Of a stretch of 32,928 nucleotides of DNA, positions 18,201 to 32,928 are shown in pieces. The position numbers and the translations under genes are program-made. Every line of letters starts with the position of its first letter. Position 1 is the first letter of the stretch. A model generated the notes under the pieces. The model made no database searches and had not been told where the DNA came from. It saw only the letters and a program-made list of their open reading frames with translations. The DNA is taken from assembly GCA_958295675.1 (NCBI GenBank), contig OY282360.1, positions 325,466 to 358,393 of the forward strand. The letters run 5' to 3'. Origin of the DNA: Minisyncoccota bacterium (GTDB taxonomy: Bacteria > Patescibacteriota > Minisyncoccia > Phycocordibacterales > JABAAK01).

Positions 18201-21200
18201 TCACTATAGATGCATCAGTGTCAGTCACTTCGGATAGTGCTGGACAGTTCACCACACCTGCCGCGCCAGCGTTTGATGACGGTACGCACGCGCTGAAAGG
18301 GTACATCACCATCAACAGCGCGCGGTCAGGTCCGTTCGCGCTCGGCGATCTCGTGATTGACACCGAAGCGCCGGAACTCGCCTTCACGGACGATGTGAAC
18401 GAGGGACCGGTACAGAGCGACACGGTTGTGGTTACCATGACACCGAGCGGGGATACCTTTAACGGCTTTGCCTACTCGGACGATCGTAACTGCGGCAGCG
18501 GCGACACCTACACCGGCAGCAGCACAACGCTCACCATTACTACTGAGGATGAAAACGGCAAGTATGTCTGCGCGAAAGCGACGGACACCGCGGGAAACAT
18601 CGGCTACTCACCGCCGTCAAGCACTACTGTGAATGTGCAGTATACGGTGAACATTGATGTTACTCCTCCGGTCGTGCAGGTCTTCAGGATCGGCAGCGGC
18701 GCAACCTCGCAGTTTGTCGTTACTGCGCAGGATACCAATGCACTCACCGCTATTTACAAAGACAATACCGCTTCTAGTGCATGTACGACAGCCGCGTATC
18801 CGAATCCGCCCGCAGCTCCCGCCAGTTGGACATCCTACGACAATGCCATGCCCACAGCACTGACGGCTGACGACTCAAACGGACTCTGTGTGATATTTGC
18901 TGATGCAGCAGGGAACAAGGTAGCACAGCACATTACTGACGGCGGCACCTATCCGCTCGGCGTGGATGATTTCACCATCGTTACCGCTGACGACAGCGGT
19001 GGCAATGACGCGGATCGTGTGACAAACGACAGCACACCGCGCTTCACCGGTACCTCGGTACCCGGCTCAGTCGGTACTATTGTCATTGACAGGGAAGTGG
19101 GAGAGACGACAACAGCCAGTACCACTATTTCAGATCAGACGGGAGCCACCACCCCAGCACCCTCTGCTCTAGTGAGCGGAGATGACGCGCAGTCAGTATT
19201 AAGTCGTTTCTTCCAAAGGGTTGACCCTTCAGCAACAGTCACGGTAAGCGGTGATTCAATTACCGTCACGTCATCCGTCATCACCGGTTTCACAGATCTG
19301 AAATTTGCTTCATATACCACTTCCGACGGTGTGAAGAGTAGTTCCGATGTTCCTGTAACAACAGCTTCGACCATATCCGCAACTGGCGCGACTAGCACCG
19401 GCGGAAGCAATCTGGGAACCATCATAACAGCACAGCCACTGGGAACGATATCACACTTCCTGGTCGGTACTGTTGAACAGAAGATTGCCGAAATCACCGC
19501 CTCCGACTATGACCGGACGATGACCAACACATTCACCACCGCGGCAGCAGCATCAATTCCGGACGGCACCTACACACCGAAGGGATACATTGACCTGACA
19601 GACAACAATATTGACGATCCGGTCGGACCGTTTGACTTGCCGCAGATAACCATTGACACGGTAGTTCCATTCGTTACCGCTGATGCTACATTTTTCACGG
19701 TGAGGGTGCCCGGATCTGATAACTACTTCAAGCCAGGCGATACGGTATTCTTTCAAGGAACTGAACGACAGGTATACGGCACCCCGCCATATACCAATGT
19801 GTTCCTGCCGAGACCGTCAAGCAGTGTGCATTTGAACGAACAGGTGTATGACCCGGTAGTATCATTCGCGGGACAGTCATTCACCGGCTGTACCGGCAGC
19901 AGTAGCTCACCGTTTACCATTACCTGTACCGGCACTTCCTTCACACTCAGCAGTGACGCTGAAGAGGGTGTCGCATCGCTTGAAATCGTGACCGAAGACC
20001 TTGCCGGCAATGAGTGGCGTTATTCGGACTCACAATACTACAACACTGGTGCGGCAAGAGGGTACGATAATCCTTCAAGTATCATCATAGACAAAACAGC
20101 ACCGACCTACACGCTTTCAATAGACAAGAGCATCGCCAAAGCGGAAGACACGGTGAGCATAACTGTGGATGCAGAGGATGTAAACGGCGTATTAATAGGC
20201 ACCACCCCCGCGGTGATCAGTGAAACAAACCCGCTTGTCGTCACCTTTGACGGAACACAGTATAGTTTCAACACACTACCGGGATCATTCACCCATACCT
20301 TCTCCGCGACCGCCGCGACCGGACCGCGCACCATAACCGTCCCGACACTCTACGACCCGGCAGGCAACATCCTCGCGGGATTCAGCAGGGAAATGACCTT
20401 CCTGGATACCGGGGTGCCGAGTATTCGCGGATTCCATTTCAGCACTGCTGCCGGCATGCTTGCGGTATCAGCCGTCGCCGACAGGAACAACGATCCCTCA
20501 CTGACCACCGATGAGACCATACGGTTCAGCTTTGCCGGCGCGTGTGCTGAGTTCCCGGGATCACCGGACTTCACCGGAGACCCGCAGGAGGACAGTCAGC
20601 GGTACAACTTCAGCATTACTATCCCGGACGGTGTGTACGCGGCGAATACATGTCAGCTGATCGTCACCGATCAGGCAGGCAACGCATCCAGCGCGACCGA
20701 TGAGAACGCTATCTTCCGGGTGCAGATTGACTCCACTGCCCGCAGACGCGGAGGCGGCGGAGGCGGAGGCGGTATCGGACTCGCCCGTTTCAGAGATTCA
20801 CTCAATACTGATGAGGAAACAGGCGTTGCCGATGCACCGGCACCGGAGATTTCAGTCACTCCACAACGACCGACCTACACCCAGGGTGATCGGAATCCTG
20901 CCATTCGCGCTCTACAGGCAATACTCAACAGTAAAGGATTTACCGTCGCAGAGAGCGGACCCGGCTCAGCAGGACAGGAAACTGACTACTTCGGACCGGC
21001 AACGGAACGCGCGGTACGGGCATTCCAGGAAGCGAATAGTATACCAGTCACCGGTCTGCTTGACCATGCGACACAGGTAGCACTATTACCAGAAGCGGAC
21101 AGTGCCACAAAAACACAAATCATCGCGGCACTCAGAGAGGAGATAGCCCGGGTAACCGCGCGTATCAACGAGTTACTCGCTCAGCAGGGAGCGGAAGAAA

Positions 21201-21562
21201 CACCTGCAGCACCGCCCGCAGAAGCACCGACACCACCCGCACCTCCTGTAGCACAACCCGCGGCAGAAGCACCGACCGGCGTACCGGCACCGCTAGCACT
21301 GCCGGCACCGAAGCGAAGAACACTCGGCGCGCCGCAATTCTTTTCCACGGACAGCGGTTCAGCGGCACCTCCCGCAGCACCCGCAGCGCCGACACCTCCC
21401 GCACCTCCTGTAGCACCACCTGCACCACCCGCACCTCCTGTAGCAGCACCGACACCGCCTGCGGACGACAGGGAAGAGAGAACAGCACCGCCGCAGCCGT
21501 TCTACAATGAAGATGCGACACAGCAGCGCAACCGCAGAACATTCAACCCGGGTGCCTTCTGA
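9206..21562 (+). CDS. Giant secreted Ig-like/cadherin-like surface protein, complete, 4118 residues
   Basis: The N terminus is a clear signal peptide: hydrophobic residues 12-30, then SSA before Q34. Next come four cadherin-like beta-sandwich domains (PF12733-like; roughly residues 81-177, 243-334, 391-485, 545-638, each with 'LTLSD/LTVSD...TAYTADVA...EGENTVTI...YTLTITR'). Glu/Asp-rich linkers of about 30-60 residues separate them. Residues 700-3840 are Ig-like modules with 'AGN' and 'DTTAP' signatures. The C-terminal order is a nine-Gly run (about 3850), PG_binding_1 domain (3897-3960), coiled coil (3966-3995), Pro/Ala tail, and a polar end finishing NPGAF. From residue 1186 on it is a near-copy of the upstream giant gene, except at four exchange sites. 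There is no strong Shine-Dalgarno: AAGGG lies 17 nt upstream of the ATG. A surface adhesin role is inferred from domain content; the ligand is unknown. Confidence 0.93.
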   Translation: MHISQSIFLSRFVAVFVSMAMIFSVTMIPVSSAQVPPETPAANDGQQGTEDDSSEEQTGETQLPDDEDTSNTQPETPAEDDATLSALTLSDDMSFNEPFDAATTAYTADVANTIETVTVSATPVNSNATVVYTDTTDADTDTVGQQVTLTEGENTVTIIVTAQDGVTVQTYTLTITRAAEEPSEPEDDDTQPANEPADDEEEPVEENEESEEEEEPVEEEEESNEDGEEESEEEEETPTPTVSLSGLTVSDTDLNETFDPAVTSYTADVANTIENVTVTPAADDTMTVAFTDTTDTDTEEEGHQVVLTEGENTVTITVTAEDGVTVQTYTLTITRAAEEPSEPEDDNTQPANEPADDEEEPVEEEEESSEEEEEESEEENEEQETPAEDDATLSALTLSDDRSFNEPFDATTTAYTADVAHDVAEVTVSATATNSDATVVYDPTDADTDTVGHQVMLTEGENTVTITVTTQDGVTMQTYMLTITRTAEEPSEPEDDDTQPANEPADDEEEPVEEEEESEEEEESNEDGEEESEEENEEQEATPTVALSGLTVSDTNLNEPFDPAVTTYTADVANTIENVTVTPTADDTMTVAFTDTTDADTEEDGQQVNLTEGENTVTITVTAEDGVTVQTYTLTITRAVEEEEPSEPEDDDAAEPADDEEEETPEPVMESVPEPTVEVVAPPQPQAQRQQAQLPDDDTSDTQAAPTSAFTTFKIKSDTTHDTGVSQTDNITKKANPTFVVEHTTSFGPPDGTSDHYLTLRKKNSACPAAVPTAATNGTLNSAGWSSSINKFLTAGTSYTSIELAFLTNFSAGTRCILAHYTQGSAYTPVTATYKMLEITIDTTAPSAPTLALHDPSATPADDSTPTFRLTVENGAAVSLYKAASCAGTAVATGTASSTSIDLTSSAVANGSYTFSAKQEDKAGNASACSTGVAYEYQQPTSAAPSSINLQDASDTGTDDDNITADHTAPVIEFTIVSGATITARYRKSGGTYTDIVAGKITASGTAGTVTLPDLTGATRDGDYNVEITQTESGKAATAATYTFTLDTTAPSITTVDLSTAAPFNSGDRYINNAEKAGTGTLVGPTAVTDANHASVTSSFAVIRSGAACDSSTSGFDIRANTTAADAAADGAYKICFRATDPAGNIGYAASTEIFTRDTTAPTFAISTTSSQENGATYSDDVYLNAADTVTLNVTMTDANVNAPTLNVQYGSGTGAAVPNPVGTKTATTITIGTLGARAGFAKDNSTLTASQVTNNNREYIRFTITPVSGFALPVGTMYVCPVSALADTTPAATGCTSLGNTPLLQTNPLDEDFEVTSANMAEINGGVVFMIVSGGARVVRQVVPVTITTTNSYAYTDTIASGDNGILKTKITGITDAAGNAATDQASFANYDIDGTSGDNYIADTTAPTASVTVGNISYTGANTVSSVKYLNAGDEVSVPVVFANGPMKANNDVASAFKDDSDDSTVVTYGNAIADNDSGIDVIYTVSAGHNIAEDDLQFDLTNESSITDIAGNALSAFTIVDIDDVVIDTTPPALDVDTVGLRSADDSCADFDGTSGCDFGTNSDDITNNYENLELEVDLDTADTVKLHIYLDDGDNDKSDDLTALDSDGDYDTLTATTVNTDVDYDSGASANAVTTKKLYIRAEDRANNTANSDTFTLTIDRQAPTAPTAPDLHADTDSSGGDGTTSDDLTNHATVVFDVATHTRTTQCRFVYEGAYAAAAANACVPASTDHDHDSDGTPTAYANADLYTNATEQEETFKTREYDIAGNHTDSSATTVHFDRSISEALFDLKPGSDSGYSNTDNITNDNAPTITLSSLESSTAPTSGTGQARVEVYAWTPASSSDTSFLDSSGDGQTAELGTALRTIVNATSASMDQTFGSQSDGVYRIVTKHTDDAGNVAWTSAPATKLAYDATASSGYGFDASTATNVLIIDTQKPAAPAAPDMTPVLDTFGANGNLARDGTNTDDITRNQDLAFLVDSSVRDFNDAADLTGAALARERHHIALWEWDTETFASGTTETAASGQSITINGGSRTHTQPALTSTDGTATSNIAGTTAITNAGFADSTRKGSLFTHRFAGAAVNTTDDYYIAAKQVDAAGNTSDYGDATTVTIDRDPPRSPRQEIRLHRATDTGTSDTDGRTTSRTPIFAVKFPRESAGSGPDRQDEHARHGADYYEIWWDPDATDGINEADFEYPSRPGNDDQASYGWIDPTVTATANSIIPGATGYTASLLDNYQGSTALLDGVSVRVQMQSAPNINQEYAYRVVAVDYAGNSNLSLQNTVSIPTVLPPTPSNPILADATNSGLNSDTITNNTTVTVNTAYANRSGAGTEETAERQGQAAQNVQTLRFTVTPPTDSTLTAKTVDRSHSTVAPTALAAAVTDNGFTLPLGHETGGTNQNFTTGYTYAGDFNLASIFGVSADHLPDGDYTFSVIALNAGNERSKPTVTPLTVTLDTTDPTIGTVTDGTTEGNVVDGTRHLKAGDTVTVQVPLIDAHQPATAPTVHFRFGDSETDRSATAGAVVTTATRRVGLQSGGPTIAVQIAAGGVQIDPTAASAQSVLGSYFRAFDPDAVVTASAGNLSVTSSVIAGATLHDIKIIHNYTDSGAFWDSDDVPTTFSSVTQNGNVLTATYESIFDDLVARTLVGNSNITSFLTGSITLPIPPTYPYTYDIQSGDTGELKYKITNVTDGAANSIDDQDSFTTLSTTVADTTAPDITLIRDRAHDASDKDDTEYIATALDANFNRIVSKDSVGTGSCTNAATLTGYTDYVNPSASPPVTATAITANNANGRCFIAVDHAGNQAADHAGDSDSTIIVGIGNFEVVDEDDTGSDSDDEITSDDTPRFAGTTAPNTPVRIVLTESTEQIGQTAGSGTTVTSQTAAGGIRVVSGDTAEKVLQRFFRSVVPGATVTYDETTGTATVTNAPNIVGVSDITHLSYFIPGSTNASSSGLTYSAALTADGLTLTFLSNGADFESVVTTALSLLTTRAYFLAGEIITIDASVSVTSDSAGQFTTPAAPAFDDGTHALKGYITINSARSGPFALGDLVIDTEAPELAFTDDVNEGPVQSDTVVVTMTPSGDTFNGFAYSDDRNCGSGDTYTGSSTTLTITTEDENGKYVCAKATDTAGNIGYSPPSSTTVNVQYTVNIDVTPPVVQVFRIGSGATSQFVVTAQDTNALTAIYKDNTASSACTTAAYPNPPAAPASWTSYDNAMPTALTADDSNGLCVIFADAAGNKVAQHITDGGTYPLGVDDFTIVTADDSGGNDADRVTNDSTPRFTGTSVPGSVGTIVIDREVGETTTASTTISDQTGATTPAPSALVSGDDAQSVLSRFFQRVDPSATVTVSGDSITVTSSVITGFTDLKFASYTTSDGVKSSSDVPVTTASTISATGATSTGGSNLGTIITAQPLGTISHFLVGTVEQKIAEITASDYDRTMTNTFTTAAAASIPDGTYTPKGYIDLTDNNIDDPVGPFDLPQITIDTVVPFVTADATFFTVRVPGSDNYFKPGDTVFFQGTERQVYGTPPYTNVFLPRPSSSVHLNEQVYDPVVSFAGQSFTGCTGSSSSPFTITCTGTSFTLSSDAEEGVASLEIVTEDLAGNEWRYSDSQYYNTGAARGYDNPSSIIIDKTAPTYTLSIDKSIAKAEDTVSITVDAEDVNGVLIGTTPAVISETNPLVVTFDGTQYSFNTLPGSFTHTFSATAATGPRTITVPTLYDPAGNILAGFSREMTFLDTGVPSIRGFHFSTAAGMLAVSAVADRNNDPSLTTDETIRFSFAGACAEFPGSPDFTGDPQEDSQRYNFSITIPDGVYAANTCQLIVTDQAGNASSATDENAIFRVQIDSTARRRGGGGGGGGIGLARFRDSLNTDEETGVADAPAPEISVTPQRPTYTQGDRNPAIRALQAILNSKGFTVAESGPGSAGQETDYFGPATERAVRAFQEANSIPVTGLLDHATQVALLPEADSATKTQIIAALREEIARVTARINELLAQQGAEETPAAPPAEAPTPPAPPVAQPAAEAPTGVPAPLALPAPKRRTLGAPQFFSTDSGSAAPPAAPAAPTPPAPPVAPPAPPAPPVAAPTPPADDREERTAPPQPFYNEDATQQRNRRTFNPGAF
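12845..13265 (+). other. Variable module site 1, type A in giant gene 2
   Basis: Type A segment with 'MYVC', a second Cys 16 residues on, and 'ANMAEINGGVVFMIVSGG'. It has the same conserved flanks as 91-478 but little sequence identity to it beyond the type A signature. Confidence 0.7.
16780..17208 (+). other. Variable module site 2, type B ('VLxRFF'-like) in giant gene 2
   Basis: Segment between the same flanks as 3991-4406, but of type B: 'SAQSVLGSYFRAFDPDAVVT', then 'VTSSVIAG', then a closing 'ITSFLTGSITL' strand. It has no cysteine pair. Confidence 0.8.
17797..18213 (+). other. Variable module site 3, type B in giant gene 2
   Basis: Counterpart of 4997-5414: 'KVLQRFFRSVVPGATVTYDE' is conserved, while the part after 'NAPNIVGVSD' differs from gene 1. 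Confidence 0.7.
19074..19494 (+). other. Variable module site 4, type B in giant gene 2
   Basis: Type B segment: 'DAQSVLSRFFQRVDPSATVT', 'ITVTSSVITGFTDLKFASYT', closing 'ISHFLVGTVEQKI'. It resembles the site 2 type B segment of the same gene more than anything at site 4 of giant gene 1. Confidence 0.8.
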
Positions 21563-21707: not shown

Positions 21708-21748
21708 AACATTTGGATGTTCTTTTAACTCACACCGAGGAGGTTGCC

Positions 21749-22414
21749 ATGCGTGCACATTATTTGAGCAAATCACCGGAAACCCTGACCAGACTTGCTG
21801 CGGATGAGGATGAGAGCATACGACGGGAAGTCGCCTTACACCCAAACACGCCTCAGGAGGTGCTTGCGCGCCTTGCCGGAGACACGGATGAGTATGTGCG
21901 GATGAATGTTGGTAGTAATAAAAATACACCTCCTGAAATCCTCACCCTGCTTGCAAAAGATCAAGATTGGATTGTGCGGTTGGCTGTCGCCGATAATCCG
22001 AACACGCCTCAGGAGGTGCTTATACGCCTTGCCGGAGACACGAATGAGCGTGTGCGCCAGAATGTTGCCAAGCATAAAAATACACCTCCTGAAACCCTCA
22101 CCCTGCTTGCAAAAGATCAGGATAAGGTTGTGCAATGGGCTGTTGTGCGATGGGCTGTTGCCGCAAACAGGAACACACCGAAAGAAGTTCTCACCGAGCT
22201 TGCCAAAGACAAGGATGTAGGTGTGCGAATAATTGTCGCCATGAATCCAAACACACCTGTAGAAGTGCTTGAAATGCTTGCCAAGGATAAAAACGCAAAT
22301 GTGCGAGTGTTTCTCATCACGAATAAAAATCTACCGCTGGAAATCTTCAGACAGCTTGCCGAGGAGGATCAAGACGAATCTGTGCGGCGGGTTGCTGCCA
22401 AGATAAAGCGGTGA
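21749..22414 (+). CDS. Leucine-rich-repeat-variant (LRV) protein A1
   Basis: 221 residues made almost wholly of eight repeats of about 24-26 residues with the LRV pattern 'NTPxEVLxxLAxDxDxxVRxxVAxxP' (PF01816-like, right-handed alpha/3-10 solenoid). The start is set by GAGGAGG at 21737-21743, five bases before the ATG; an in-frame ATG at 21713 is upstream of this site and close to the -10, so it is rejected. There is no signal peptide or membrane segment, so the product is probably cytoplasmic. Repeat 5 has a 5-residue duplication from a 15-bp direct repeat (22128-22157). The Azotobacter LRV protein carries an N-terminal cysteine cluster for an Fe-S centre, but this protein has no cysteine. 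A binding or scaffold role is likely from fold; the partner is unknown. Its own promoter-like -10 and terminator make it a single-gene unit. Confidence 0.88.
   Translation: MRAHYLSKSPETLTRLAADEDESIRREVALHPNTPQEVLARLAGDTDEYVRMNVGSNKNTPPEILTLLAKDQDWIVRLAVADNPNTPQEVLIRLAGDTNERVRQNVAKHKNTPPETLTLLAKDQDKVVQWAVVRWAVAANRNTPKEVLTELAKDKDVGVRIIVAMNPNTPVEVLEMLAKDKNANVRVFLITNKNLPLEIFRQLAEEDQDESVRRVAAKIKR
22128..22157 (+). repeat. 15-bp tandem microduplication inside LRV gene A1
   Basis: Two adjacent 15-base units that differ at one base, adding five residues to repeat 5. The same event is present in A2 (23059-23088), so it predates the gene duplication. Confidence 0.8.
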
Positions 22415-22421
22415 ACCATCT

Positions 22422-22462
22422 ACACTCCGAACATATCACACATGTTCGGAGTGTATTTTTTA
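22422..22462 (+). terminator. Terminator of LRV gene A1
   Basis: Perfect 13-bp stem (22422-22434 with 22442-22454), 7-nt loop, then ATTTTTTAT. It begins 8 bases after the stop codon. Confidence 0.9.
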
Positions 22463-22536
22463 TATATTTTTCTTTGTATGATATACTATTACAGGAAGTT
22501 TTTTAACCAACAAACTGACTGAAAGGAGAGTCACTG

Positions 22537-22659
22537 ATGAACTTCTTAAAAAGAGTCCAGGTGCCGCCGGAGCTCACGGATCAGAACGCATCTCCGGATG
22601 TCCTCGCACAGTATGAATACATAACAATAAGGTATAATAACATTTGGATGTTCTTTTAA
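22537..22659 (+). pseudogene. Truncated N-terminal remnant of LRV gene C
   Basis: ATG at 22537 opens a 40-codon frame starting MNFLKR and running to 'SPDVLAQY'. It matches the first 26 residues of the intact gene at 23471, together with the upstream intergenic sequence and AAAGGAG site. After position 22612 the similarity stops and the frame runs through ten unrelated bases into the promoter region of LRV gene A2, ending at TAA 22657. This is the breakpoint of a tandem duplication that copied A plus the start of C. It may still be translated as a 40-residue peptide, but no function is expected. Confidence 0.8.
22633..22638 (+). promoter_or_regulatory. -10 element for LRV gene A2
   Basis: TATAAT carried over by the duplication. 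The sequence upstream of it now comes from the truncated C gene, so any -35 differs from that of A1. Confidence 0.45.
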
Positions 22660-22679
22660 CTCACACCGAGGAGGTTGCC

Positions 22680-23345
22680 ATGCGTGGATATTATTTGCGC
22701 AAATCACCGGAAACCCTGACCAAACTTGCTGCGGATCCGGATGAGAGCATACGGAAGGAAGTTGCCTTACACCCGAACACGCCTCAGGAGGTGCTTGCGC
22801 GCCTTGCCGGAGACACGGATGAGTATGTGCGGATGAATGTTGGCAAGAATGAAAATACACTTCCTGAAACCCTCACCTTGCTTGCAAAAGATCAAGATTG
22901 GATTGTGCGGGGGGCTGTCGCCGATAATCCGAACACGCCTCAGGAGGTGCTTGCGCGCCTTGCCGGAGACACGAGTGAGTATGTGCGGAGGAATGTTGCC
23001 CGGCATGAAAATACACTTCCTGAAACCCTCACCCGGCTTGCAAAAGATCAGGATGAGGTTGTGCGATGGGATGTTGTGCGATGGAATGTTGCCGCAAACA
23101 GGAACACACCGAAAGAAGTTCTCACTAAGCTTGCCAAAGACAAGGATGTAGGTGTGCGAATAGCTCTCGCCATGAATCCAAACGCACCTGTAGAAGTGCT
23201 TAAAATGCTTGCCGAGGATAAAAACGCAACTGTGCGAATGTGTCTCCTTGAGAATAAAAAACTACCGCTGGAAACCTTCAGACAGCTTGCCGAGGAGGAT
23301 CAAGACGAATCTGTGCGGCGGCTTGCTGCCAAGATAGAGCGGTGA
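22680..23345 (+). CDS. Leucine-rich-repeat-variant (LRV) protein A2
   Basis: 221 residues, a tandem duplicate of the gene at 21749 (offset 931 bases) with many substitutions, mostly at variable repeat positions. It has eight LRV repeats of 24-26 residues, including the same 5-residue duplication in repeat 5. The start is fixed by GAGGAGG at 22668-22674, five bases before the ATG; an in-frame ATG at 22644 is ignored for the same reason as in A1. It has no signal peptide. Substitutions relative to A1 include changes of charge (K to E, Q to R) in the solenoid faces, which would suit binding to a different partner, but that is inference. The gene is followed by its own terminator. Confidence 0.88.
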   Translation: MRGYYLRKSPETLTKLAADPDESIRKEVALHPNTPQEVLARLAGDTDEYVRMNVGKNENTLPETLTLLAKDQDWIVRGAVADNPNTPQEVLARLAGDTSEYVRRNVARHENTLPETLTRLAKDQDEVVRWDVVRWNVAANRNTPKEVLTKLAKDKDVGVRIALAMNPNAPVEVLKMLAEDKNATVRMCLLENKKLPLETFRQLAEEDQDESVRRLAAKIER

Positions 23346-23352
23346 ACCATCT

Positions 23353-23393
23353 ACACTCCGAACATATCACACATGTTCGGAGTGTATTTTTTA
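23353..23393 (+). terminator. Terminator of LRV gene A2
   Basis: Same 13-bp stem as after A1 (23353-23365 with 23373-23385), followed by a T-rich run. Confidence 0.9.
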
Positions 23394-23412
23394 TATATTT
23401 TTCTTTGTGTGG

Positions 23413-23418
23413 TATACT
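23413..23418 (+). promoter_or_regulatory. -10 element for LRV gene C
   Basis: TATACT, 52 bases before the ATG. The upstream region is T-rich with no clear -35. The equivalent before the truncated copy also reads TATACT (22483-22488). Confidence 0.45.
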
Positions 23419-23470
23419 ATTACAGGAAGTTTTTGACCAACAAACTGACTGAAAGGAGAGAGAGTCACTG

Positions 23471-24277
23471 ATGAACTTCTTAAAAAGATTCCGGTTGCCG
23501 ACGGATTTCATAGATCAGAACACATCTCCGGATGTCCTCGCACAGTATGTGTACCACCGCAGCGTGAGGGTTCGGCAGTATCTCGCCGGACATGAGTGGG
23601 TTTCTGCTGAGATTCTGGATAAGCTTGCCAGTGATCAGAAAGTCAGTGTGCGACGCAATGTCGCAGTGAATCCAAACACAGCACCACGAACTCTTGAACG
23701 ACTTGCTGAGGATCAGAAGACCGGTGTGCGACGCAATGTGGCATTGAATCCGAATACTCCTCCGCACATTCTCGGCAAGATTGCCTGGGATAAAAATCTG
23801 CGTGTTCGGTACGCTCTCGCCAAAAATCCAAACGCAGCACCACGAACTCTTGAACGACTTGCCGAGGATAACAATCGCTTTGTAAGGAGCATGGTTGCGT
23901 TGAACCCGAACATATCTTTGGAAGTCCAGATGCGACTTGCCAAAGATAGGAAAGGAATTGTGCGAACATCTCTCGCCGTAAATGAAAACACCTTTCCGAC
24001 GGTCCTTCAGAATCTTGCCTACGATAAAGATGATGTTGTGCGAATGCGCGTCGCCCGACACTCAAACACACCTGTAGTTGTGCTTGAGTATCTTGCTAAT
24101 GACAGCAATGTGAATGTACGGTTTATGGTTGCTTGTAACCAGAACACACCGGTGGCATGTCTCATTCTTCTCAGCACAGATGAGAGTGTTGATGTGCAGA
24201 AACAAGTTGCCATAAACATAAACACACCACAGGACATTCGCTCGAAACTGATTGAGGAGTTAGAAATAAACCCGTAA
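23471..24277 (+). CDS. Leucine-rich-repeat-variant (LRV) protein C
   Basis: 268 residues. After an N-terminal cap of about 45 residues (MNFLKRFRLP...), roughly nine LRV repeats follow with the pattern 'NPNTAPRTLERLAEDxxxxVRxxVA'. Two repeats are internally near-identical (from about residue 76 and from about residue 122), pointing to repeat duplication within the gene. The Shine-Dalgarno AAGGAG lies at 23453-23458, 12 bases from the ATG; the truncated copy upstream has only 8 because it lacks a 4-base AGAG insertion, which may lower translation here. No signal peptide is present, so a cytoplasmic product is likely. A single-gene unit with its own terminator. Function unknown beyond a probable binding solenoid. 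Confidence 0.88.
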   Translation: MNFLKRFRLPTDFIDQNTSPDVLAQYVYHRSVRVRQYLAGHEWVSAEILDKLASDQKVSVRRNVAVNPNTAPRTLERLAEDQKTGVRRNVALNPNTPPHILGKIAWDKNLRVRYALAKNPNAAPRTLERLAEDNNRFVRSMVALNPNISLEVQMRLAKDRKGIVRTSLAVNENTFPTVLQNLAYDKDDVVRMRVARHSNTPVVVLEYLANDSNVNVRFMVACNQNTPVACLILLSTDESVDVQKQVAININTPQDIRSKLIEELEINP

Positions 24278-24284
24278 CAGGACC

Positions 24285-24323
24285 AAGATCCGAACATGCA
24301 CATGTTCGGATCTTACTTTTTTA
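24285..24323 (+). terminator. Terminator of LRV gene C
   Basis: Fourteen complementary bases on each side (24285-24298 with 24301-24314), which in practice form a stem of 12-13 bp with a small loop, then ACTTTTTT. It shares the CCGAACAT core with the A1 and A2 terminators. Confidence 0.9.
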
Positions 24324-24720
24324 CATATTAGTTAATTATTTGTGGGAAGAAATAAAAGGAAAGAGTGGGGGAGAGGACAAAGTTAATGAAAGTAAAAATT
24401 ATGCCACTATATTTTACTAAAAAGCATATTATTATATAATATATAAAGATTGACAAAAAGTAATAATATTATATTCAAGAATATTGACATAATAATATTT
24501 ATATACATAATATAATTTATGAATTTTTAGGTAGGGTATGTATAAAGTACTAACAACCTTGTACACCTTGACTTCTGAAATTGAATTAGCATCATTATAT
24601 ACCCCTTTATGTATGCTTATACCTCTCTATTCTCATTCATGATTGACTCTTTCTCCTCAGGTCGACTACAAAGATAAAAATTGTCAGCATTCCCTGTACG
24701 CCAACATATAGTATTTTATT
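24324..24720. other. AT-rich intergenic region without a supported gene
   Basis: No coding frame is supported. The stretch 24410-24530 is extremely AT-rich and holds two TTGACA boxes 34 bases apart (24450-24455, 24484-24489). The second is followed at 18 bases by TAATAT. A bulged inverted repeat (GGGTAT..ATAA at 24535-24546 with TTATATACCC at 24596-24605) lies downstream. It could be a promoter for an unrecognised short RNA, but no clear terminator is seen. Confidence 0.5.
24484..24513 (+). promoter_or_regulatory. Promoter-like sequence in AT-rich region
   Basis: TTGACA, 18-base spacer, TAATAT. It lies about 290 bases before the next gene, and such matches are expected by chance in AT-rich DNA. 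Confidence 0.3.
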
Positions 24721-24749
24721 TTGACGAATTTTACGAAAAATATTATATT
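24721..24749 (+). promoter_or_regulatory. Promoter of short LRV gene
   Basis: TTGACG at 24721-24726, 17-base spacer, TATATT at 24744-24749. The predicted start near 24756 gives a leader of about 50 nt. Confidence 0.6.
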
Positions 24750-24805
24750 ATTCTTCAGGGAGAAAGATTCTCTCTTGTTCCAAACCAAAGAGAAAGGAGT
24801 GTCTC

Positions 24806-25201
24806 ATGAGTACTTTGCTGAAAGTGTTTCTAATGGTGTTTGTTTCTGCGCGAAAGGACTATGCGACACATTCAGCATCTTTAGAAGATCTCTGGCGGCT
24901 TGCCAGGGACAAAGATGTGCGTGTACGGCGAGAGGTCGCCAAGAATTCAAACATCGCAGACCGATATATGCTTGCATATCTTGCCCGAGATAGGGATAAA
25001 GATGTGCGATGGTTCGTCGCTCTGCATAAGAATACACCGCCAAAATCACTTGCATTGCTTGCCAGAGACCCATGTCGTATTGTGCGAGCGGCGGTTGCCA
25101 TGAATCCAAACACGCCAATAGAATATCTGAAGTTGCTTGCCGGAGACGAGGATGGAGGGATACGGTGGATTGTTACTCATAAACTGGACATGACGGCCTA
25201 A
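24806..25201 (+). CDS. Short leucine-rich-repeat-variant (LRV) protein
   Basis: 131 residues with about four LRV repeats ('NTPPKSLALLARDPCRIVRAAVAMNP' type) after a 25-residue N terminus. Start chosen because AAAGGAG (24793-24799) lies six bases before this ATG. The N terminus contains a short hydrophobic patch (LLKVFLMVFVSA) not seen in the other LRV proteins; it is short for a signal peptide and may simply be the solenoid cap. Repeat sequences are close to those of the three larger paralogs downstream (for example 'NTPPKSLALLA'), so this could be a shortened relative. It has its own promoter and terminator. Function unknown. Confidence 0.82.
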   Translation: MSTLLKVFLMVFVSARKDYATHSASLEDLWRLARDKDVRVRREVAKNSNIADRYMLAYLARDRDKDVRWFVALHKNTPPKSLALLARDPCRIVRAAVAMNPNTPIEYLKLLAGDEDGGIRWIVTHKLDMTA

Positions 25202-25209
25202 TCCAACTG

Positions 25210-25245
25210 AACCCAGAACATACCATGTGTTCTGGGTTTATTTTT
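25210..25245 (+). terminator. Terminator of short LRV gene
   Basis: 11-bp stem (25210-25220 with 25228-25238), 7-nt loop, then TATTTTTG. The T-run runs straight into the TTGACA of the next promoter. Confidence 0.9.
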
Positions 25246-25272
25246 GACAAATACGACACATATCTTTATACT
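25244..25272 (+). promoter_or_regulatory. Promoter of LRV gene D1
   Basis: TTGACA at 25244-25249, 17-base spacer, TATACT at 25267-25272: near-consensus. It overlaps the T-run of the preceding terminator. The leader is about 44 nt. Confidence 0.85.
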
Positions 25273-25322
25273 AATCATTAGAGGAAAGTTTCTTCTCACC
25301 TTGAGCCAAAGGAGGCAATTCA

Positions 25323-26273
25323 ATGGCAATAGAAAAGAAAGACAGTTTTTTGTTTCGGAGGTATCGTAACCTCATAAGGTCGAATGCATCACCGGAAACA
25401 CTCGCACAGTATGCCGAAGATGAGAATGATTTGATGCGGTGTTGTGTTGCCGAATATGTGGACACATCACCGGAAACACTCGCACATCTTGCTAAAGATG
25501 CAAATAGATATGTGCGACAGGCCGTTGCCGATCGTGAGGAAACACCGCCAAAATCACTTGCACTGCTTGCCGAAGATGTGTGGTGGATAGTGAGGATGAA
25601 GGTCACCTTACGGTCGAAAACACCGATAGAATCTCTCATCAAGCTTGCTGAGGATGAGGAGTGGTGGGTGCGGTTCAATGCTCTCTTTTTCGGTCACATC
25701 ATTATCGGTAACGGAAACAGATTACCGAAAAAGGTGCTTGCACGACTTGCTAAAGACGAGAATGAACTTGTGCGAGAGTTTGCTACTGATGCAGCTAATG
25801 CAGATGTTCAAGACCGGAGACTTGCCGCTGCAGATCAAAACACATCACCGATGCGGCTTGCGCAGCTTGCCGGAGATACGGATGTGCTTGTGCGGCTTAA
25901 TGTCGCCATAAACCCAAGGACATTACCGATAACCCGCGCATATCTTGCCGGAGATGCCGATAGATATGTGCAGATGTCTGTTGTTAGCCGTCCGGATACA
26001 CCACCGGAAGCATGCAGACGGTTTGTTGATGATCAAGATGATCACTTGCGGGTCCTCGCCGCCGTGCGCAATAAACACGATAATGTGTCGTTAGACACAA
26101 TCGTACACCTTGCCAGAGACACGAGCAGATATGTGCGACAAATCATTGCCGGGGGTGAGGACACACCGCCGGAAATCCTCGCATTGCTTCTCAAGGATGT
26201 AGATAAAAGTGTGTCAAGGATTGCCATCCAGAATCCAAACACACCACGAGAATTGCTCGCAATGGTGGTTTAG
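25323..26273 (+). CDS. Leucine-rich-repeat-variant (LRV) protein D1
   Basis: 316 residues with about ten LRV repeats, first of three tandem paralogs. The N terminus (FLFRRYRNLIRSNASPETLAQ) resembles gene C and may cap the solenoid. A Trp-rich pair of repeats ('EDVWWIVRMKV', 'EDEEWWVRFNA') is a family hallmark. The middle has an irregular insert (HIIIGNGNRLPKK and ATDAANADVQDRR) and the end carries 'PPEACRRF..DDQDDHLR' and 'DTSRYVRQIIA'. AAAGGAGG (25308-25315) is seven bases from the ATG. It ends AMVV, four residues longer than its paralogs. No signal peptide. The fold suggests binding of a protein or nucleic acid; no catalytic residues were recognised. Confidence 0.88.
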   Translation: MAIEKKDSFLFRRYRNLIRSNASPETLAQYAEDENDLMRCCVAEYVDTSPETLAHLAKDANRYVRQAVADREETPPKSLALLAEDVWWIVRMKVTLRSKTPIESLIKLAEDEEWWVRFNALFFGHIIIGNGNRLPKKVLARLAKDENELVREFATDAANADVQDRRLAAADQNTSPMRLAQLAGDTDVLVRLNVAINPRTLPITRAYLAGDADRYVQMSVVSRPDTPPEACRRFVDDQDDHLRVLAAVRNKHDNVSLDTIVHLARDTSRYVRQIIAGGEDTPPEILALLLKDVDKSVSRIAIQNPNTPRELLAMVV

Positions 26274-26291
26274 GATTGCGGTCAATGTACG

Positions 26292-26327
26292 AACCCAGAA
26301 CATACCATATGTTCTGGGTTTATTTTT
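26292..26327 (+). terminator. Terminator of LRV gene D1
   Basis: 12-bp stem (26292-26303 with 26309-26320), 5-nt loop, TATTTTT. Confidence 0.9.
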
Positions 26328-26354
26328 GACAAATACGACACATATCTTTATACT
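26326..26354 (+). promoter_or_regulatory. Promoter of LRV gene D2
   Basis: TTGACA at 26326-26331, 17-base spacer, TATACT at 26349-26354. Same cassette as before D1, overlapping the preceding terminator. Confidence 0.85.
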
Positions 26355-26405
26355 AATCATTAGAGGAAAGTTTCTTCTCACCTTGAGCCAAAGGAGGCAA
26401 ATTCA

Positions 26406-27329
26406 ATGGCAATGATAGAGCAAGGCATTTTTTTGGTGTCGAGGTATCGTAACCTCATGAGGTCAAATGCATCACCGGAAGTACTCGTACAGTCTGCCAA
26501 AGATAAGCATGATTTTATACGGCTTGGTACTGCCGGACATCCGAACATACTGCCGGAAACACTCGCACATCTTGCTAAAGATGCAAATAGATATGTGCGC
26601 AAAACCGTTGCCGATCGTGAGGAAACACCGCCGGAAGCACTTGCACTGCTTGCCGGAGATGTGTGGTGGATAGTGAGGATGAAGGTCGCCTCACGGTCGA
26701 AAACACCGATAGAATCTCTCATCAAGCTTGCTGAGGATGAGGAGTGGTGGGTGCGGCTCCATCTCGTTATCGGTAACAAAAACAGATTACCGAAAAAGGT
26801 GCTTGCACGACTTGCTAAAGACGAGAATGAACTTGTGCGAGAGTTTGCTACTGATGCAGCTAATGCAGATGTTAAAGAACGGAGATCTGCCGCTGCAGAT
26901 CAAAACACATCACCGATGCGGCTTGCGCAGCTTGCCGGAGATACGGATGTGCTTGTGCGGCTTAATGTCGCCATAAACCCAAGGACATTACCAATGACCC
27001 TCGCATATCTTGCCGGAGATGCCGATAGATATGTGCAGATGTCTGTTGTTAGCCGTCTGAAAACACCACCGGAAGCATGCAGACGGTTTGCTGAGGATCA
27101 AGATGATCACCTGCGGTACCTCGCCGCCTCACGCATTGAACGCGATAAAGTGTCGTTAGACACAATCGTACACTTTGCCAGAGACACGAGCAGATATGTG
27201 CGACAAATCATTGCCTCGGAGAGGCGCACACCGCCGGAAATCCTCGCATTGCTTCTCAAGGATGTGGATGAAAGTGTGTCAAGGATTGCCATCCAGAATC
27301 CAAACATACCACGAGAATTGCTCGCATAG
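26406..27329 (+). CDS. Leucine-rich-repeat-variant (LRV) protein D2
   Basis: 307 residues, close paralog of the genes at 25323 and 27465 (start-to-start offset 1083 bases from the first). AGGAGG at 26392-26397 is eight bases before the ATG. The repeat order is the same as in D1, including the two Trp-rich repeats, but the insert after them is shorter ('VRLHLVIGNKNRLPKK'). Differences cluster in repeats 1-4 and in the 'RIERDKVSLD' stretch, while repeats 5-7 are almost identical to D1. The stop falls right after 'PRELLA', earlier than in D1. No signal peptide. Own promoter and terminator. Function unknown. Confidence 0.88.
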   Translation: MAMIEQGIFLVSRYRNLMRSNASPEVLVQSAKDKHDFIRLGTAGHPNILPETLAHLAKDANRYVRKTVADREETPPEALALLAGDVWWIVRMKVASRSKTPIESLIKLAEDEEWWVRLHLVIGNKNRLPKKVLARLAKDENELVREFATDAANADVKERRSAAADQNTSPMRLAQLAGDTDVLVRLNVAINPRTLPMTLAYLAGDADRYVQMSVVSRLKTPPEACRRFAEDQDDHLRYLAASRIERDKVSLDTIVHFARDTSRYVRQIIASERRTPPEILALLLKDVDESVSRIAIQNPNIPRELLA

Positions 27330-27347
27330 GATTGCGGTCAATGTACG

Positions 27348-27384
27348 AACCCAGAACATACTATGTGTTCTGGGTTTATTTTTG
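27348..27384 (+). terminator. Terminator of LRV gene D2
   Basis: 11-bp stem (27348-27358 with 27366-27376), 7-nt loop, TATTTTTG. Confidence 0.9.
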
Positions 27385-27410
27385 ACAAATACGACACATG
27401 GCTTTACACT
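27382..27410 (+). promoter_or_regulatory. Promoter of LRV gene D3
   Basis: TTGACA at 27382-27387, 17-base spacer, TACACT at 27405-27410. One base of the -10 differs from the D1 and D2 promoters (TATACT), which predicts weaker expression. Confidence 0.8.
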
Positions 27411-27464
27411 AATCATTAGAGGAAAGTTTCTTCTCACCTTGAAAACCCGAAGGAGGGCAATTCA

Positions 27465-28385
27465 ATGGCAATGATAGAGAAAGACAGTTTTTTGTTCCGG
27501 AGGTATCGTAACCTCATGAGGTCAAATGCATCACCGGAAGTACTCGCAGAGTGTGCCGAAGATAAGAATGACATGATGCGGTGGCGTGCTGCCGGACATC
27601 CGAACATACTGCCGGAAACACTCGCACATCTTGCTAAAGATGCAAATAGATATGTGCGAAAAATCGTTGCCAGTCGTGAGGAAACACCGCCGGAATCACT
27701 TGCACTGCTTGCCGAAGATGTGTGGTGGATGGTGAGGCTGGAGGTCACCTTTCAGTCGAAAACACCGATAGAATCTCTCATCAAGCTTGCTGAGGATGAG
27801 GAGTGGTGGGTGCGGTACTATGTCGCTGTCGTCGATATCGAAGACAGATTACCAAAAGAGGTGCTTGCACGACTTGCTAAAGACGAGAATGAACATGTGC
27901 GAGAGTTTGTTACTGCTGGTCTAGGTAATGCAGATGTTAAAGAACGGAGACTTGCCGCCGGAGATCAAAACACATCACCGATGCGGCTTGCGCAGCTTGC
28001 CGGAGATACGGATGTGTTTGTGCGGCTTGATGTCGCAGTGAACCCAATGACATTACCGATAACCCTCGCATATCTTGCCGAAGATCCTGATAGATATGTG
28101 CGGATTTTGGTTGCTGGCCGTCAGGATACACCGCCGGAAGCATGCAGACGGTTTGCTGAGGATCAAGATGATCACCTGCGGTTCCTTGCCGCCTCACGCA
28201 ATAATGTGTCGTTAGACACAATCGTACACCTTGCCAGAGACACGAGCAGATATGTGCGACAAATCATTGCCGGGAGTAGGGGCACACCGCCGGAAATCCT
28301 CGCATTGCTTCTCAAGGATGTGGATGAAAGTGTGTCAAGGATTGCCATCCAAAATCCAAACACACCACGAGAATTGCTCGCATAG
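27465..28385 (+). CDS. Leucine-rich-repeat-variant (LRV) protein D3
   Basis: 306 residues, third tandem copy (offset 1059 bases from the second). AGGAGGG at 27451-27457 is seven bases before the ATG. It has about ten LRV repeats with the family's Trp-rich pair. Its own differences are 'VRYYVAVVDIEDRLPKE' in place of the insert after repeat 4, 'TAGLGNADVKERRLAAGDQ' in the middle, and a shorter 'SRNNVSLD' linker. The Shine-Dalgarno context differs slightly from the other two (AAAACCCGAAGGAGGG). No signal peptide; probably cytoplasmic. Own promoter and terminator. Function unknown. Confidence 0.88.
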   Translation: MAMIEKDSFLFRRYRNLMRSNASPEVLAECAEDKNDMMRWRAAGHPNILPETLAHLAKDANRYVRKIVASREETPPESLALLAEDVWWMVRLEVTFQSKTPIESLIKLAEDEEWWVRYYVAVVDIEDRLPKEVLARLAKDENEHVREFVTAGLGNADVKERRLAAGDQNTSPMRLAQLAGDTDVFVRLDVAVNPMTLPITLAYLAEDPDRYVRILVAGRQDTPPEACRRFAEDQDDHLRFLAASRNNVSLDTIVHLARDTSRYVRQIIAGSRGTPPEILALLLKDVDESVSRIAIQNPNTPRELLA

Positions 28386-30644: not shown

Positions 30645-30965
30645 TTAATGAAGAAATAAAGGAAACAAAATGTCAAAGAAAGTGAGGTAGATGATAAACC
30701 CTACCAACAGACCCACCATGACTTTCATTGACAGCATTTCATTTCGCAGAATACACCGGAATGTTGACAGAGTCGGTACGCTGATTCCGAGAATAAACGC
30801 AAACCAGTCATTGTTGCCAGTAAGGGCATACAATCCTGCCAAAGGAAAGAAAAAAGTGAGAAAGGACCAAACAGCAGCAGTTGGTATGAAATACACAACA
30901 TCATTTTGTTCCCTCTGCTGCCTAACATCCAATCGATCAGAAAGGTTTGCATTCATCACAGCCAT
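30645..30965 (-). CDS. Small membrane protein 1 (paralog of 31399-31728)
   Basis: 106 residues. A polar N terminus (about 22 residues, Arg/Gln/Asp-rich) is followed by three hydrophobic segments: about 24-48 (FIPTAAVWSFLTFFFPLAGLY), 52-66, and 80-104 (VMVGLLVGFIIYLTFFDILF). The C terminus PLFLH matches PLFLR of the downstream-coordinate paralog. Start chosen by AGGAG (- strand, 30974-30978), eight bases before the ATG. The leader, the C-terminal coding part and the terminator all have close copies around 31399-31860, so the two genes arose by duplication. Function not recognised; not matched to a known toxin or transporter family by eye. Confidence 0.8.
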   Translation of the reverse strand: MAVMNANLSDRLDVRQQREQNDVVYFIPTAAVWSFLTFFFPLAGLYALTGNNDWFAFILGISVPTLSTFRCILRNEMLSMKVMVGLLVGFIIYLTFFDILFPLFLH

Positions 30966-31118: not shown

Positions 31119-31174
31119 GTGTATAAAAAGTGAGAGGCACCACCTGCGAGAAGAACAGAATCGCAGGCGGTGCC
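31119..31174 (-). terminator. Terminator-like hairpin of the small structured RNA
   Basis: Stem 31174-31161 with 31149-31136 (14 pairs, one mismatch), 11-nt loop, then six to eight bases before TTTTTATAC on the - strand. The gap before the T-run is longer than ideal. Confidence 0.5.
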
Positions 31175-31290
31175 GTGATATATAAGGTAATGGCGGCGGC
31201 CATTGGGTATAGCAAGCAGGGCGGCGGCATGTGCCACAAACCCTACCAAAAGGAGCCATATAATCCAAAGCCAAAACCCACCATTACCTA
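31119..31290 (-). ncRNA. Candidate small rod-shaped structured RNA, about 170 nt
   Basis: On the - strand, a promoter TTGACA-N17-TACCAT (31324-31296) predicts a start at about 31289-31290. That is exactly the first base of AGGTAATGG (31289-31281), which pairs perfectly with CCATTACCT (31193-31185). Between the arms, further short helices stack into a rod: GGC/GCC, UUGG/CCAA, UAUA/UAUA, GUAGGG/CCCUGC and a GGC-ACAU-GCC tip. A strong 14-bp hairpin with one mismatch (31174-31136) and a T-rich stretch follow as a terminator. The overall shape recalls 6S RNA, but no conserved 6S sequence is recognised. No convincing coding frame with a ribosome site is present. Confidence 0.5.
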
Positions 31291-31295
31291 GATAT

Positions 31296-31324
31296 ATGGT
31301 ACACGATTTTAATTGTTATGTCAA
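31296..31324 (-). promoter_or_regulatory. Promoter of the small structured RNA
   Basis: On the - strand: TTGACA (31324-31319), 17-base spacer, TACCAT (31301-31296). The predicted start coincides with the terminal helix of the RNA. Confidence 0.6.
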
Positions 31325-31339
31325 GTAAACAAAAACTAT

Positions 31340-31398: not shown

Positions 31399-31728
31399 TT
31401 AACGGAGAAACAAAGGAAGCAAAATGCCAAAGAAAGCAAGGTAGGCAAAAAACCCTACCAACAAACCTATCGTGACTTTTTCTGATGGCACTCTATCTTG
31501 CAGCAGCAAGAGGAATATTGACAGAAATGATACGATGAGTCCGAAGGTCAACGCGCACCATCTGTACAAATCCGCCAAGTCGTTGCTATCAAAGAAGAGT
31601 AATCCTGCAAACAAGTAGTAGGAGGAAAGGTAAGGCAAGACGGTAGAAGTTGGCAGGGTGTTGATCTCATCATCTTGCTCCTTTTCCGCATCCGATTGCT
31701 CAGGAAGGTTCACATCCTTTGTAGTCAT
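31399..31728 (-). CDS. Small membrane protein 2 (paralog of 30645-30965)
   Basis: 109 residues. An acidic N terminus (TTKDVNLPEQSDAEKEQDDE) is followed by three hydrophobic segments: about 29-47, 57-76 (WCALTFGLIVSFLSIFLLLL) and 84-106 (VTIGLLVGFFAYLAFFGILL). The last 26 residues are clearly homologous to those of the other small membrane protein, while the N termini differ in charge. AGGAG (- strand, 31737-31741) is eight bases before the ATG, in a leader shared with the paralog. It lies upstream of the small structured RNA and of the first paralog in the - strand direction, each with its own promoter and terminator. Function not recognised. Confidence 0.8.
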   Translation of the reverse strand: MTTKDVNLPEQSDAEKEQDDEINTLPTSTVLPYLSSYYLFAGLLFFDSNDLADLYRWCALTFGLIVSFLSIFLLLLQDRVPSEKVTIGLLVGFFAYLAFFGILLPLFLR

Positions 31729-32007: not shown

Positions 32008-32037
32008 CAAAAAAATCACCCCACCTAAGTGGGGTGA
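32008..32037 (-). terminator. Terminator of large structured RNA copy 1
   Basis: 9-bp stem TCACCCCAC/GTGGGGTGA with a 4-nt loop (32025-32028), then TTTTTTT on the - strand. Confidence 0.92.
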
Positions 32038-32477
32038 GAAGAAGATGGGAAGCCGATACCCGATGTTACCGACCTTTTTCCAGTGTTCGGGAAATGATTT
32101 TACGTACACGGTAGTAATGGGTGGCCATCTCGGCGCGCGGGATTCTTGGCGTGTATGCGTCGGAAGAATCCACTTAGTGCGGGCTGATGAGATCTAGCTC
32201 CCAAAACCATTACCGAATCCGTGAACCGCGATGGACGAAAAATCGTCACATGCGCAGTAGTCAACCTCACTCCTCACAATGGCCTATGGCAAAAACCACC
32301 GGAGAAGGAGGACACTTCAAGATTTCCGGGGAATTGCACCGCCGGTCCTCTCTGTCCGCACTGAAACGCTTTCTCTAAAGTACCTGAACACCCTCACAGG
32401 AAGAAATTACTCCCCTCCCGCTTAATGAGGATCCACCGCATCTTTATGGCATGCTTCGCCGTCACTTCCCATCTTCT
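32008..32477 (-). ncRNA. Candidate large structured RNA, copy 1 (complete), about 470 nt
   Basis: On the - strand a promoter at 32511-32484 predicts a start near 32477. The first 13 bases (32477-32465, AGAAGATGGGAAG) pair perfectly with 32052-32040, just before an intrinsic terminator, so the 5' and 3' ends are joined by a long helix. Internal elements include GACGA-UUUU-UCGUC (32247-32234), GGATTCTT/AAGAATCC (around 32172-32141) and a CCTC...GAGG stem (32311-32265). A second copy follows in tandem. Copies differ by substitutions and by indels of many sizes, including non-multiples of three, and no frame is kept in both, so a protein is unlikely. Motifs of RNase P RNA (GAGGAAAGTCC, ACAGAA) and tmRNA (tRNA-like ends) were looked for and not seen. 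Family unassigned. Confidence 0.7.
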
Positions 32478-32483
32478 GAATCT

Positions 32484-32511
32484 ATTGTAGCAAGATAGAG
32501 TAAAAAATCAA
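32484..32511 (-). promoter_or_regulatory. Promoter of large structured RNA copy 1
   Basis: On the - strand: TTGATT (32511-32506), 16-base spacer, TACAAT (32489-32484). It sits between the terminator of copy 2 and the start of copy 1. Confidence 0.65.
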
Positions 32512-32536
32512 TGGTGAAATGGAGGGTATCGCTCTG

Positions 32537-32566
32537 TAAAAAAATCACCCCACAGAGGTGGGGTGA
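32537..32566 (-). terminator. Terminator of large structured RNA copy 2
   Basis: 9-bp stem identical to that of copy 1, with a different loop (AGAG at 32554-32557 on the + strand), then TTTTTTT on the - strand. Confidence 0.92.
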
Positions 32567-32928
32567 GAAGAAGATGAGAAGCCGATACCTGATGTTACCG
32601 ACCTTTTCCAGTGCTTCGGAGTGGTTTTACGTACACGACCTTAAGTAATGGCTGGCCATCTCGGCGCGCGGGATTCTTGGCATGTATACGTCGGAAGAAT
32701 CCACTTAATGCGGGCTGATGAGATCTAGCTCCCAAAACCGGCAGGTCCGTGAACCGCGATGGACGAAAAATCGTCACATGCGCAGTAGCCAACCTCAATC
32801 CTTGTGAAAGGACGAGGACACATCGAGATTTCCAGGGAATTGCACCGCCGGTCCCCTCTATGACCACACTGAACGCTTTCTCTTACAGTACCTGACACCC
32901 TCACAGGAAGAAATTACTTTCCTCCCGC
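32537..32928 (-). ncRNA. Candidate large structured RNA, copy 2 (5' end outside window)
   Basis: About 390 bases align to copy 1 (offset about 529 at the terminator end), with long identical blocks such as 32688-32740 against 32159-32211. Its 3' helix strand reads CTTCTCATCTTCT (- strand, 32581-32569) and its partner should lie about 50 bases beyond the right window edge. It has its own terminator. The apical part of the CCTC...GAGG stem is much shorter here (32817-32793). Confidence 0.68.

Follow-up and report, generated by a model that had tools for sequence, protein, structure and literature searches.

A probable new family of large structured RNAs, present in five copies in a Minisyncoccota genome

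Two adjacent RNA genes

At one end of the window, by which we mean the whole 32,928 nt stretch analysed here (bases 325466-358393 of the 724,510-base single contig of this Minisyncoccota genome), lie two neighbouring segments that a first-pass annotation described as a tandem pair of RNA genes of about 470 nt. This raises the question of whether they do encode structured RNAs and, if so, of what kind. Both genes are present, at 469 nt (copy A) and 464 nt (copy B, which runs from 32538 to 33001 on the minus strand, such that the window contains its 3' part), but they are not a pair alone, as the genome contains five copies in addition to truncated remnants. The features of the two genes are as follows.

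32009..32477, minus strand: RNA copy A, complete, 469 nt; its 5' and 3' anatomy is alike in the five genomic copies
32506..32511, minus strand: -35 hexamer TTGATT of copy A, with a 16 nt spacer to the -10 hexamer
32484..32489, minus strand: -10 hexamer TACAAT of copy A, seen in the sequence and aligning with TATAAT/TATAGT of the other copies
32465..32477, minus strand: 5' arm of the closing helix P1 of copy A, 13/13 complementary, with compensatory pairs in B and E
32326..32345, minus strand: hairpin with conserved CGGYGGTGYAATTCCCYG, near-invariant in the five copies
32140..32171, minus strand: hairpin with conserved CTTCCGACGYATAYAYGCCAAG, conserved among the five copies
32063..32078, minus strand: conserved AAAAGGTCGGTAACAT block, preceding the 3' arm of P1
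32040..32052, minus strand: 3' arm of P1 of copy A, complementary to 32465-32477, with compensatory changes
32009..32037, minus strand: intrinsic terminator of copy A, stem-loop 32016-32037 and seven T
32538..32928, minus strand: RNA copy B, the 3' 391 nt of 464 nt; 5' end at 33001, outside the window
32569..32581, minus strand: 3' arm of P1 of copy B; 5' arm outside the window
32538..32566, minus strand: intrinsic terminator of copy B, stem-loop 32545-32566 and seven T

Read on the minus strand, copy A starts with AGAAGATGGGAAG at a predicted start of 32477, with both hexamers at a fitting distance upstream; near its end is CTTCCCATCTTCT, followed by a GC-rich hairpin (CACCCCAC..GTGGGGTG) and seven T. 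Inspection of the sequence found every coordinate and element of the original description to be correct: the promoter hexamers, start site, perfect 13 bp helix and terminator assigned to the first copy are all there, and the second has indeed kept its terminator stem (32545-32566) with a loop differing from that of 32016-32037. Both stems are followed by T-runs, and copy B has a promoter-like TATAAT of its own upstream. Each of the five copies is preceded by promoter-like hexamers and ended by a terminator.

Five copies in three islands

The three copies beyond the pair in the window are denoted C, D and E, and all five, ranging in length from 453 to 483 nt, are located in the genome as follows.

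357474-357942, minus strand: copy A
358003-358466, minus strand: copy B
589599-590066, minus strand: copy C
514857-515339, plus strand: copy D
about 514162-514614, plus strand: copy E

Copies A and C are 96% identical, flanks included, whilst A is 83% identical to B and 73% identical to D, with E more distant; A and C are a recent duplicate, and D and E are older paralogs. Either dosage or divergence of function, the two roles suggested in the first-pass annotation for adjacent copies, may apply. One of the truncated remnants is a 3' end of approximately 48 nt, downstream of an ORF in the island of D and E. The copies are housed in three islands. A and B lie between a YbaK-like editing gene and the gene for fructose-bisphosphate aldolase, C is near the 5S and 23S rRNA genes, and E and D are near uvrC, uvrA and thrS (named by eye from their translations). 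The 23S and 5S genes (about 592428-593500) are unlinked from the 16S gene (G000:565652-567114), around 25 kb away, an arrangement described for many CPR genomes (PMC8172020). Together with the size of the genome, this suggests that it belongs to the CPR.

Elsewhere in the window are two giant ORFs (33-8951 and 9206-21562) of 2972 and 4118 aa, which have Ig-like domains and, towards the C terminus, a peptidoglycan-binding domain, with cadherin-like domains in the larger; these are probable surface proteins. A cluster of LRV/HEAT-repeat genes occupies 21713-28385; some of its members are apparent tandem paralogs, and all three that were searched match LRV.

A conserved fold and no conserved reading frame

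Applied to the five copies, RNAalifold gave a consensus of 126 pairs in 18 helices, with 93.2% of the cells in the alignment paired. Two-sided compensatory changes are found at 25 of the 126 pairs, compared with 8.9 +/- 2.2 in shuffled alignments (none of 500 reached 25) and 1 to 5 when the structures were slid by 1 to 3 columns, these changes being drawn from paralogs of one genome that represent effectively three or four independent lines. As the family is known from this genome only, the covariation is entirely among paralogs, of which A, B and C are close; divergence among the copies reaches about 27% or more, yet the fold is kept. The closing helix is paired in all five copies, E being without one end pair, and shows compensation from A-U to G-C in E and from G-C to A-U in B. 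Three blocks, CGGYGGTGYAATTCCCYGRAAA, CTTCCGACGYATAYAYGCCAAG and AAAAGGTCGGTAACAT, are almost invariant. Minimum free energy z-scores relative to dinucleotide shuffles were -3.4 for A, -3.3 for B, -5.6 for D and -7.2 for E; since A folds well on its reverse strand too (z -2.9), the assignment of strand rests on the promoters and terminators and not on folding energy.

In none of the copies is a protein frame conserved: all five have between 1 and 9 stops in each frame, and the longest open stretches differ from one copy to another. The first-pass annotation had named as evidence against an RNA gene homologues that keep a frame and not the helices, and the opposite pattern is what was found: the helices are maintained with compensation, and no frame is. 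Single copies do contain open frames of 95-120 codons, attributable to chance, which might suggest an untranslated leader or a short mRNA; however, the copies have no frame in common and each gene is closed by a terminator, making this explanation extremely improbable. With a compensated fold, promoter and terminator signals and no conserved frame, these loci match the general kind of large structured non-coding RNA genes.

Comparison with known families and with RNase P

A search against Rfam 15 returned nothing at or above the gathering threshold, and with lax filters and E values up to 10, using the pair and single copies (A, D and E), there were chance matches only, one of which, to GadY, arose via the terminator. 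The OLE, ROOL and GOLLD models included in Rfam gave no match, either at gathering or with single copies at E up to 10. ARAGORN detected neither tRNA nor tmRNA, the latter defined by a tRNA-like domain and a tag frame, in the window. The original view that the genes match no named family is thereby upheld, as is that of a large structured RNA, given the fold with compensation and the lack of a frame; the likeness it drew to OLE, ROOL and GOLLD extends to size and style and to nothing beyond.

The absence of RNase P and tmRNA signatures was likewise borne out, in the negative ARAGORN result and in the failure of RNase P models to match at E up to 10, yet RNase P warrants closer consideration. 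All seven of the family's other genomes contain a match to RF00010, at 85-145 bits, but none was found in this genome at E up to 10. Along with a few short motifs that are similar in A and C (GAGGAAAGT-like, and ACAGAGAGG..CCGGCGG), this could be taken to mean that the five copies are a highly derived RNase P RNA that has replaced the normal gene. Against this, searches of A, D and E with the laxest filters matched no RNase P model at E values up to 10. The look-alike motifs do not persist in D and E, the putative first strand of P4 sits in a local hairpin, and the similarity to RNase P RNAs of sister species is at the level of chance. Diverged or missed RNase P RNAs are, moreover, documented in CPR genomes, including some that escape the models and one 'absent' gene that had been hidden by false circularisation, an assembly error (PMC8172020). 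We therefore think it very unlikely that the copies are RNase P RNAs, and regard the missing rnpB as an observation separate from them. By synteny, the expected order of msrB, a DUF192-like gene, rnpB and murJ was not found at the ABC-F gene at approximately 158 kb, the only neighbour located; rnpB may have diverged, been interrupted or dropped out of the assembly.

Distribution

A blastn search of the family's seven other genomes with copy D gave no match. R1, a covariance model that represents the 3' domain with 167 positions, recovered exactly the five copies from the genome itself and had no credible match in 297 genomes of the order, 384 of the class or 380 of the phylum (overlapping samples that include the seven family members), though these large-sample searches used strict filters and very diverged relatives could be missed. 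The covariance-model search of related genomes that had been suggested from the sequence thus recovered the genome's own five copies only. A single match, in G435 (25 bits, E 0.0056; one of 384 genomes), is to an A-rich stretch of 75 nt and was attributed to chance.

Phage and plasmid records contained no match, and pattern scans of viral and genome contigs produced short coincidental matches only, in unrelated sequence. One exact 25 nt match recurs in 12 related viral contigs, and a 21 nt pattern match in three alphaproteobacterial genomes; since no other part of the RNA is present beside either, neither a viral origin nor an alphaproteobacterial relation was accepted. Another short pattern matched five further viral contigs, in which there was no credible RNA.

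We consider it very probable that these are real members of a new, lineage-restricted family of large, stable, structured non-coding RNAs, encoded by independent genes. On sequence comparison, it adds a new family to the large structured RNAs, a broad kind already known in bacteria, and across everything searched it is confined to one genome. A paralog family of five is unusual in a 0.72 Mb genome, because such genomes spare little non-coding space. That relatives are missing from sister species suggests the existence of lineage-specific large RNAs in small-genome bacteria, missed by comparative pipelines that depend on many genomes, whilst paralogs ranging from 96% to 73% identity and below constitute an internal covariation set with which structure and function can be tested together.

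The islands and their other contents

The genes flanking the A/B island abut in the sister species G002, where L049:11372 is the end of the editing gene and L049:11373 that of the aldolase gene; nothing lies between them, compared with around 3.4 kb here. The island may have been gained in this genome or lost in G002. In G001, another ORF follows the aldolase gene. Beyond RNAs B and A, the island contains the ORFs T1 and T1b and no fewer than two additional candidate structured RNAs (N1 and N2); a third candidate is in the E/D island.

31399..31728, minus strand: T1, small hydrophobic ORF of 109 aa, downstream of copy A in the same island
30645..30965, minus strand: T1b, paralog of T1, 106 aa, 40% identical, same island
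31130..31334, minus strand: N2, candidate structured RNA showing promoter-like hexamers, a closing helix and a GC-rich terminator stem of the GGCACC type
L009:3646-3925, minus strand: N1, structured RNA candidate with promoter-like hexamers, closing helix and GGCACC-type terminator stem
L011:2886-3065, plus strand: N3, structured RNA candidate preceding RNA E, with promoter-like hexamers, closing helix and GGCACC-related terminator stem

Searching the genome with pieces of the N candidates identified the three islands only, plus a 42 nt promoter piece before ftsZ. All three islands have small hydrophobic ORFs with two or three hydrophobic spans each (T1, T1b and T3 of 109, 106 and 109 aa; T2 and T2b of 100 and 85 aa). 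None of the four searched (T1, T1b, T3 and T2) passes a Pfam cut-off, and no relatives were found in viral contigs. Within paralog pairs, changes are spread equally across codon positions (37/34/38 and 23/20/23), so purifying selection on the ORFs is not evident and their partnership with the RNAs may not be real; with change that appears fast or relaxed, they are treated as candidate proteins only.

The islands might alternatively be selfish or accessory RNA cassettes, spread by segmental duplication within variable regions and having no function for the host. The abutting flanks in G002, the 96% identity of A and C extending into their flanks, the truncated remnants and the lack of any copy in the other genomes sampled are all consistent with this, whereas a profile search of selected ORFs recognised no recombinase or transposase gene in the islands. 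Furthermore, selection on the RNA is suggested by the fold, which compensatory change has maintained in the older copies D and E, and by the retention of promoters. An explanation in terms of a cassette is possible, if on the doubtful side.

A shared box and a candidate small RNA

The sequence TGTCARRGGATACAYCCC is found upstream of RNA B, RNA D, T2, T2b, T3 and a candidate small RNA, S1. It also precedes ftsZ, lemA-htpX (these genes being named by eye from their translations) and a gene for an LRV-repeat protein; its sites are at G000:450887, 605268(-) and 648370, as well as in the RNA islands. Allowing up to two mismatches, the genome has 19 matches to the box compared with six for the reversed pattern, although several of the box-bearing promoters are duplicates of one another and so do not count as independent evidence. 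Copies A and C are without a clear box. The distribution hints at a control common to the RNAs, the membrane ORFs and envelope genes.

S1 is around 137 nt long and lies upstream of copy C (L010:3626-3800, minus strand). Sixteen contiguous nucleotides of it are complementary, with one G-U pair, to one conserved site in B and D, a match equalled by only one and three of 200 shuffles respectively, which is suggestive of antisense pairing with these two copies. The large RNA could accordingly be pictured as a trans-acting regulator, itself controlled by S1. However, A, C and E have no such match, the site in B and D is the 3' strand of a hairpin, and a single S1-like gene was found; we judge such a role to be unlikely.

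A possible envelope-linked scaffold

The most likely mechanism, tentative as it is, would be for the RNA to act as a structural scaffold linked to the cell envelope, alone or with protein. Each copy would be transcribed alone, and the end-to-end helix would close the RNA into one compact molecule, on which the AAAAGGUCGGUAACAU block and the loops of the conserved hairpins may form contact surfaces. Its candidate partners in an envelope-linked particle would be the small hydrophobic proteins that the same islands encode. The link to the membrane is proposed because small hydrophobic ORFs are present in all the islands and the TGTCARRGGATACAYCCC box is common to RNAs, ORFs, ftsZ and lemA-htpX. 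A more extensive proposal, that the five large RNAs, together with small membrane proteins and additional structured RNAs, are co-regulated with ftsZ and lemA-htpX through the one box and form membrane-attached RNA particles as an RNA-based envelope system, would appear rather improbable on present indications.

Relation to known large RNAs

RNase P RNA (RF00010) is comparable in size range, likewise has a helix closing its ends and shares a few look-alike motifs, whereas the RNA described here matches none of its models at E up to 10, has no P4 core that could be seen and exists in five copies. The resemblance to ROOL and GOLLD is that of a large ornate RNA whose function is not known. RNAs of this type are able to form homo-oligomers, and ROOL and GOLLD belong to phages and prophages, where tRNA islands are often close by (PMC12286853); here, by contrast, there is no model match and no tRNA in the window, phage and plasmid records yielded no homologue, and viral contigs none that was credible. 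OLE, in one account, is about 600 nt long, comes from extremophilic or anaerobic species that are Gram-positive, and has OapC among the proteins it binds (PMC9723947). It too is a large structured non-coding RNA with small membrane proteins as partners, these being candidates only in the present case, and differs in that the RNA here has no covariance-model match to it, exists in five copies and is accompanied by unrelated ORFs. Hence the scaffold mechanism proposed above is alike in concept to that of OLE, with the RNA itself not a member of the OLE family. Few large structured RNAs are known in bacteria, and those that have been studied, OLE, ROOL and GOLLD, have provided unexpected RNA architectures.
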